A DNA stretch of 64,000 nucleotides from Aestuariirhabdus litorea (GTDB lineage Bacteria > Pseudomonadota > Gammaproteobacteria > Pseudomonadales > Aestuariirhabdaceae), in the NCBI RefSeq assembly GCF_003864255.1, contig NZ_QWEZ01000002.1:124001-188000 (forward strand), given 5' to 3'. The position numbers were made by a program, and so were the translations under genes. Positions 35,028-42,610 of this stretch are shown piece by piece; position 1 is the first letter of the stretch; every line of letters starts with the position of its first letter. The notes below the pieces were generated by a model. That model saw only the letters and a program-made list of their open reading frames with translations. It ran no database searches and had not been told where the DNA came from.

Positions 35028-35042
35028 TGTAGTTAGGCTACA
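35028..35042 (+). promoter_or_regulatory. Distal copy of the TGTAG-N5-CTACA inverted repeat before aceE
   Basis: TGTAG (35028-35032) and CTACA (35038-35042) flank a 5-base centre. The same motif with identical spacing occurs 51 bases further on at the promoter. Two copies about five helical turns apart suggest binding sites of one dimeric regulator. Confidence 0.5.
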
Positions 35043-35076
35043 CTAGAAGCCCGCGAAGATTGATTTGGCCCCCTGC

Positions 35077-35101
35077 TTTGTAGTAAAACTACAAATATAA
35101 T
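35077..35101 (+). promoter_or_regulatory. Proximal operator overlapping the aceEF promoter
   Basis: TTTGTAGT (35077-35084), AAA, ACTACAAA (35088-35095) is a perfect 8-base inverted repeat. A consensus TATAAT (35096-35101) follows directly, so the repeat fills the spacer of the promoter. A bound protein would block RNA polymerase. The transcript would have a leader of about 100 bases. In enterobacteria the GntR-type repressor PdhR controls aceEF, but its known site (ATTGGT-type) is different. Confidence 0.6.
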
Positions 35102-41932: not shown

Positions 41933-42610
41933 TTACTGTGAAAGCAGCAGATCAATGCGCTGCTGCAAGCCCACTGCATCGATCACCTCAATGCGCCCAC
42001 GCCCCAACTGCAGCCACCCATTGGACTCGAAATCCTTGAGGTGCCGACTAACCACTTCGCGTGCGGTGCCCAGCTCCTCGGCAAGGTTCTGGTGAGTCAG
42101 TCCTATCTGCTGGCCTGCATTGCGCACCAGGTAACGGGCCAGACGGACATCGATCCTTTCGAAGGCGATCTGTTGTACCAGCGTAATCAGACGTGACAAT
42201 CGCTCACTGTAGGTATTGAACACGAATTCCCGCAGGGCAACCGACTCCTCCAGCGCCCGCTCGAAGACCCGGACGGGGATTGCAACCGCTTTGAGCGCCG
42301 TTTCACTGACCCCTTCGGCGGGGTAGGGGGAGTGGGCGAAAAGGCAGGAGGTAGTTAGCACACAGGATCCACCATCGTCGATATGGTAGAGCACGATCTC
42401 ACGCCCCTGTTCGGAGCGGGCAAACACCTTTACCGACCCCTCGAGCACAATCAGGTAGTTATCGCAGGCGTCCCCCTGCCGGAACAGGGTGGTCTGCGCC
42501 GGCACCTCCACCAGCATCGCATTTTCCAGCGCACGGGCTGCCGCGGCGTCCGCCAATAGTTTGGCCAGTGCGGGTATCTTTTCCAGTGCAGAGGGGCTGA
42601 AGGGCTGCAT
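41933..42610 (-). CDS. Crp/Fnr family transcription regulator
   Basis: A 225-residue regulator. The cyclic-nucleotide-like beta barrel spans roughly 20-130 (LFRQGDACDNYLIVLEGSVKV, then REIVLYHIDDGGSCVLTTSCLF). The C-terminal winged helix has LTHQNLAEELGTAREVVSRHL as recognition helix. It lacks the N-terminal four-cysteine cluster of Fnr, and the cAMP-binding RxS pattern of Crp is not evident. Two cysteines (GDACDN and GGSCVLTTSC region) could sense redox state; this is conjecture. It starts two bases after the stop of the TPR gene and precedes the DUF2892 gene, a likely target. Confidence 0.88.
   Translation of the reverse strand: MQPFSPSALEKIPALAKLLADAAAARALENAMLVEVPAQTTLFRQGDACDNYLIVLEGSVKVFARSEQGREIVLYHIDDGGSCVLTTSCLFAHSPYPAEGVSETALKAVAIPVRVFERALEESVALREFVFNTYSERLSRLITLVQQIAFERIDVRLARYLVRNAGQQIGLTHQNLAEELGTAREVVSRHLKDFESNGWLQLGRGRIEVIDAVGLQQRIDLLLSQ

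Follow-up and report, generated by a model that had tools for sequence, protein, structure and literature searches.

What controls the pyruvate dehydrogenase operon of Aestuariirhabdus litorea? In the genome of this organism, whose genus NCBI places in the Aestuariirhabdaceae, Oceanospirillales, the aceE gene is preceded by a distal site, TGTAGTTAGGCTACA, and a proximal site, TGTAGTAAAACTACA, both of which can be read directly in the window, i.e. the whole 64-kb stretch of DNA that was analysed. Each has the form TGTAG-N5-CTACA. The enterobacterial PdhR site differs from this motif, and the original prediction had therefore proposed that a regulator other than PdhR acts here. The two sites are the sole matches to TGTAG-N5-CTACA in the window, even when one mismatch is allowed; with the same tolerance, shuffled windows gave a mean of 0.46 matches anywhere in the 64 kb, and at least two matches occurred in 6 of 100 shuffles. 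Of 20,000 copies of the 274-bp region between glnE and aceE generated by a first-order Markov model, 7 held one or more exact matches, and none held two.

The centres of the two sites, at 35035 and 35086, lie 51 bp apart, and the core of the proximal site sits inside a perfect 19-bp palindrome, TTTGTAGTAAAACTACAAA, that directly abuts a TATAAT hexamer. Compared with the more extended form TGTAGT-N3-ACTACA, the distal site has one mismatch. The TATAAT is likely the -10 element of the aceEF promoter. The hexamer 17 bp above it is CTGCTT, and a consensus scan of the plus strand of the aceE upstream region found neither a sigma-70 promoter nor a -35 element. Thus, of the earlier suggestion that the proximal operator fills the promoter spacer, the contact with TATAAT holds, whereas the spacer itself, with no -35 found, is only possible. 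The features of the locus are collected in Table 1.

Table 1. Predicted operators before aceE and the neighbouring genes, in window coordinates.
Feature	Position	Strand	Remarks
Distal RccR-type operator (predicted)	35028-35042	.	TGTAGTTAGGCTACA; pair found at 72 of 80 related aceE loci
Proximal RccR-type operator (predicted)	35077-35095, core 35079-35093	.	Core identical to a published P. fluorescens aceE site
TATAAT, likely -10 of aceEF	35096-35101	+	Inferred; no -35 consensus found
aceE, pyruvate dehydrogenase E1, 885 aa	35209-37866	+	Regulated gene; relatives by sequence; name from the original prediction and sequence
aceF, dihydrolipoamide acetyltransferase, 532 aa	37894-39492	+	Presumed same operon; name from sequence and neighbourhood
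glnE, divergent neighbour, 995 aa	31947-34934	-	Name from the original prediction and sequence

Operators of this kind are known from Pseudomonas, where RccR, a KDPG-responsive repressor of the RpiR family, controls aceEF (PMC5489143). The region upstream of aceE in P. fluorescens carries two 15-bp palindromes, TGTAGTTTTACTACT and TGTAGTAAAACTACA, both of which are footprinted by RccR, apparently cooperatively and with the DNA showing signs of a bend from one site to the other, and the rccR promoter carries a further 15-bp site inside a degenerate longer site (PMC5489143). KDPG lowers the affinity of RccR for the 15-bp sites and raises its affinity for a longer site at aceA (PMC5489143). In P. 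aeruginosa, aceE is likewise repressed by RccR and freed by KDPG (PMC10810197). The A. litorea genome shares with P. fluorescens SBW25 and P. aeruginosa PAO1 the layout of two 15-bp sites before aceE and one before rccR (PMC5489143, PMC10810197), and both its proximal aceE site and its rccR site are letter-identical to Pseudomonas sites. The match to the Pseudomonas RccR sites extends to sequence, number and position, and the two palindromes are very probably the paired 15-bp operators of RccR.

The spacing differs slightly: it is 51 bp in A. litorea but 52 bp, measured between the starts of the sites, in each of the 61 Pseudomonas loci. The P. fluorescens sites are given as '68 bp apart' in PMC5489143, a figure that may refer to the outer span. 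Spacing of about five helical turns had been proposed to suit cooperative binding, which agrees both with the 51-53 bp kept among related loci and with the cooperativity reported in P. fluorescens (PMC5489143). The aceE sites are not a new control element. The evidence points to a regulator other than PdhR, as first supposed, but not to an unknown one, RccR having been published in 2017. Moreover, rccR homologues are reported from dozens of further genera (PMC5489143), so the presence of RccR outside Pseudomonas is not itself new. What is new is the predicted Oceanospirillales instance of a known RccR-aceEF control, through which the Pseudomonas carbon switch would be carried into this order; a literature search found, among the matches listed, no title on RccR in Oceanospirillales.

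The position of the pair between divergent genes raises the further idea that the distal site also serves glnE, such that RccR would couple nitrogen signalling to carbon supply. The glnE gene lies on the opposite strand, its start codon separated from the distal site by 93 bp, and shared control had been suggested for this region. However, the sole minus-strand promoter match, at 35125-35097, falls below the proximal site and is close to what chance would give (one match against a shuffle mean of 0.4), and the abstract of PMC5489143 does not name glnE as a target of RccR. Nothing was found in favour of shared control beyond the closeness of the gene, and we reject it as improbable. Elsewhere in the window, a minus-strand frame at 41933-42610 resembles a regulator of the Crp/Fnr family, as judged by eye.

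A regulator suited to the RccR operators is encoded in the same genome. The gene for a predicted RccR orthologue lies at 326001-326876 of contig C2 and forms a reading frame of 291 codons if started at an upstream TTG. Its product is one of only two proteins in the genome with the RpiR N-terminal domain (PF01418). By eye, the second appeared to belong to a different kind, and its apparent counterpart in a related genome (L115, from the genome of aceE locus L018) has 24% identity to RccR. The RccR-type protein matches PDB 8K3B with 372 bits over residues 14-291; this entry is the RccR/KDPG complex (PMC10810197). Its identity to the best match in each of three Pseudomonas genomes is 61, 60 and 61%, and, as in the orthologous Pseudomonas regulator, the KDPG residues R152, K270 and R277 are kept, whose replacement by alanine abolishes KDPG sensing (PMC10810197). 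The residue comparison covered RccR alone, and the kept residues do not separate RccR from HexR. The models for eda and edd are passed in this genome and a zwf frame lies behind eda; thus, KDPG can be made.

Binding of the sites by HexR rather than by the RccR-type regulator must be weighed at this point, because HexR, which regulates Entner-Doudoroff genes, and RccR are close relatives within the RpiR family and both sense KDPG in Pseudomonas (PMC5489143). The A. litorea protein even carries the HexR name by NCBIfam: it passes model NF008451 with 314.5 bits against a cut-off of 296, and the 17 families listed include no model for RccR. Phylogeny and identity place it otherwise. In a tree rebuilt without two long outside rows (L124 and L129), a branch supported at 100/100 separates five HexR-type proteins from the A. 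litorea protein, which falls together with 13 further RccR-type proteins and a diverged one from Mangrovitalea; the inner order on the RccR side is weak, and the A. litorea protein has no supported sister group there. The HexR-type paralogue that lies near zwf in P. fluorescens EK007-RG4 and Pseudomonas sp. T1-3-2 is 44% identical to the A. litorea protein, as against the 60-61% for the Pseudomonas RccR type. Unlike these two strains, A. litorea yielded no HexR-type protein in the PF01418 search. In addition, no upstream site of this kind, at up to two mismatches, is present at four of the five HexR-type genes, and the fifth (L119) has one with two mismatches. On the strength of clade position and identity, we reject the HexR identity of the regulator, and control of the aceE sites by HexR appears very improbable. 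Annotation may gain from this distinction, in that the standard model calls the RccR-type protein HexR.

The gene neighbourhood is a less certain guide to RccR and HexR. A zwf neighbour was seen with all five HexR-type genes, and zwf is not within the 3.2-kb locus of the RccR-type gene (L098). In Pseudomonas sp. GOM6 the RccR-type gene (L100) lies near a zwf gene, which has 49.6% identity to that of A. litorea, and no HexR-type protein was found in that genome. Since an RccR-type gene can adjoin zwf, this neighbour alone does not split the two types. The lack of a HexR-type partner is not peculiar to A. litorea, since 9 of the 13 RccR-bearing genomes searched, including one Pseudomonas, have none either; Zooshikella is an example of a genome with both types.

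The aceE upstream regions of relatives, which the original prediction had named as a check, support the pair. Among the best 80 of 362 aceE loci, 72 carry it with at most two mismatches per site and a spacing of 51-53 bp; many of these loci come from close relatives, such that the counts are not independent. The pair is present in all 61 Pseudomonas loci, always at 52 bp (two of the loci are from one strain), and in 11 of the 19 non-Pseudomonas loci, at 51-53 bp, and it arose in none of 800 shuffled upstream regions. A scan of 400 bp missed the pair in L025, L027, L028 and L034, which have longer leaders, and a scan of 620 bp found it. Position by position, 13 upstream regions spread over genera, all with the pair, are identical at 15 of 24 half-site positions, with flanking positions at 0.31-0.77; the least conserved half-site position, at 0.38, is the sixth base of the distal site.

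Presence of the pair follows that of the regulator. When 20 genomes were searched, an RccR-type protein was found in 13 (E of 1.7e-93 or better, 54-63% identity), and all 13 have the operator pair. The pair occurs in none of the six genomes without an RccR-type protein (best E of 1.4e-30 or weaker, or no match at all), with the proviso that some of the 20 genomes are drafts and absence of the regulator is not certain. Mangrovitalea (G016) was set apart from both groups, having a diverged member of the family (L113, 49% identity) and no pair; loci L028, with the pair, and L029, without it, lie outside the 20-genome set. The comparison provides a clean test, in which the operator pair comes and goes with the regulator among the genomes examined. 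Three loci from genomes in which the regulator was not found (L018, L024 and L036) retain recognisable decayed copies of the sites. Of these, L018 belongs to Aestuariirhabdus sp. CSMAG_2910, the closest aceE relative among the matches listed (89% identity). Its decayed operators, TGTAGTTTAACTGCG and TGTAGTAAAAAAAAA, lie at L018:3816-3880, the RccR-type gene was not found in the draft genome, and the co-loss of operators and RccR looks recent.

This co-occurrence also bears on regulators from outside the RpiR family. In enterobacteria and a number of other lineages, aceEF is under the control of PdhR, of the GntR family (PMC5343134), a protein family different from that of RccR, and a GntR/FadR-family regulator, whether PdhR-like or new, had been put forward for the A. 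litorea sites. However, the sites carry the motif published for RccR, and across genomes this motif goes with the RccR-type gene; both points favour the RpiR-type RccR, and PdhR/GntR control, which we reject, would be extremely improbable. Just as hard to credit, and likewise rejected, is an origin of the sites as chance palindromes or as a protein-free transcript hairpin, since the genome-wide motif count is at control level but the Markov copies never gave two sites, the pair is kept in most related loci and the half-sites are better conserved than their flanks.

A search of the whole genome for the motif had also been proposed, and its outcome was mixed. Exact TGTAG-N5-CTACA occurs at three places in the 3.66-Mb genome and the backward-read control pattern at four; the bare count is therefore at chance level. 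The location of the three copies is not chance: two are those at aceE, and one precedes the RpiR-family gene that encodes the RccR orthologue. This third copy lies at C2:326899-326913, 46 bp above the likely ATG, and on the coding strand reads TGTAGTATAACTACA, letter-identical to the site before the RccR-type gene in three of three Pseudomonas genomes. With one mismatch allowed, there are, among the matches listed, 52 places for the 15-bp motif and 121 for the control, which is uninformative. An exact match with an N11 spacer, at C1:1667010, was dropped, as it lies inside a long frame read as sdhA and N11 occurs at three places against eight for the control.

Across relatives, a site with at most one mismatch precedes 10 of 14 RccR-type genes, that of A. 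litorea included. For the other four (L105, L106, L107 and L109, from Sansalvadorimonas, two Parendozoicomonas and E. elysicola), no 15-bp site was found at up to two mismatches in the 400 bp upstream. Self-control is thus not general, and in these four RccR-type genes it may have been lost or may work otherwise.

The behaviour of RccR in Pseudomonas suggests how the A. litorea sites would function. Without KDPG, as during growth on acetate, RccR would occupy the two aceE sites, probably in a cooperative manner that spans five helical turns and bends the DNA between them. Because the proximal site abuts the -10 element, bound RccR would block transcription of aceEF. Once the Entner-Doudoroff pathway makes KDPG, RccR would let go and pyruvate dehydrogenase would be made, and through the third site RccR would limit its own synthesis. 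The retention of 51-53 bp over otherwise divergent sequence supports the cooperative or bent-DNA model proposed for aceE.

In Pseudomonas, RccR also acts at long sites, published as 28 bp, at aceA, glcB, pckA and others (PMC5489143). The long exact sites in three Pseudomonas genomes (those of loci L037, L038 and L063) have the form TGTAGT-N14-ACTACA, with three per genome, and T1-3-2 has one additional N15 site; N14 exceeds N3 by 11 bp, or roughly one turn of the helix. As positive controls, N14 sites were seen before the isocitrate lyase gene of both P. fluorescens (L151) and GOM6 and before the P. fluorescens gene for malate synthase G (L161), all names being read from the sequences. An N15 site before isocitrate lyase (L147) is present in LUC14, a close relative of Kistimonas, and the same site occurs in Kistimonas.

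The A. litorea genome differs from Pseudomonas in this respect. A long site, with a spacer of N13-N17, was sought without success between glcB and aceA, upstream of pckA, along the glk-eda-zwf stretch and over the 4.8 kb of the edd locus. The scan used spacers of 15-17 and, after N14 was seen in Pseudomonas, of 13-15, with the same result; it could miss a degenerate site, and the upstream regions of gap and pntAA lie outside it. A genome search for the N14 form with one mismatch gave five places against two for the control, four of them within long reading frames and the fifth where an ExbB-like frame (by eye) begins, and these candidates were rejected, none being seen at a known RccR target. 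Among 14 relatives, a variable-spacer search gave counts above the control in two (GOM6, 6 against 3; P. fluorescens, 5 against 2) and below it in 12, so counts alone carry little. An isocitrate lyase search matched 8 of 15 genomes; in the seven besides GOM6, no site with a spacer of 15-17 or 3 was found at up to two mismatches within 500 bp of the gene, with the start codon used for L137 being too early. In the A. litorea genome itself, the gene for a 531-aa isocitrate lyase and that for malate synthase G point away from each other and have one common intergenic region (L131:630-1210); both names were read from the sequence, and that of isocitrate lyase also follows from PF00463.

With no long site at glcB-aceA, pckA or the Entner-Doudoroff genes, the RccR regulon of A. 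litorea, as far as sequence can tell, may consist only of aceEF and rccR and be smaller than in Pseudomonas. A tentative extension, which we hold to be possible but on the doubtful side, is that RccR acts here as a one-branch switch: released by KDPG, it would repress only aceEF and its own gene, with neither the glyoxylate/gluconeogenesis branch known from Pseudomonas nor a HexR partner. A. litorea would then form a natural series with the N15 site of LUC14 and with the absence of rccR, alongside operators that are decayed or missing, in Aestuariirhabdus CSMAG_2910 and several Endozoicomonas. If true, the series would trace the gain or the dismantling of a regulon that uses two site lengths, in which the five-turn spacing of the pair stays fixed as the neighbouring sequence changes.

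In the Endozoicomonas-type loci L025, L027, L028 and L034, the pair ends approximately 410-433 bp before the matched part of aceE, compared with approximately 100-170 bp otherwise. In the three of these that were read (L025, L027 and L028), the block AAGTACTGGTACT stands between the two sites, and in L024 and L036, from genomes in which RccR was not found, the same block is also kept.
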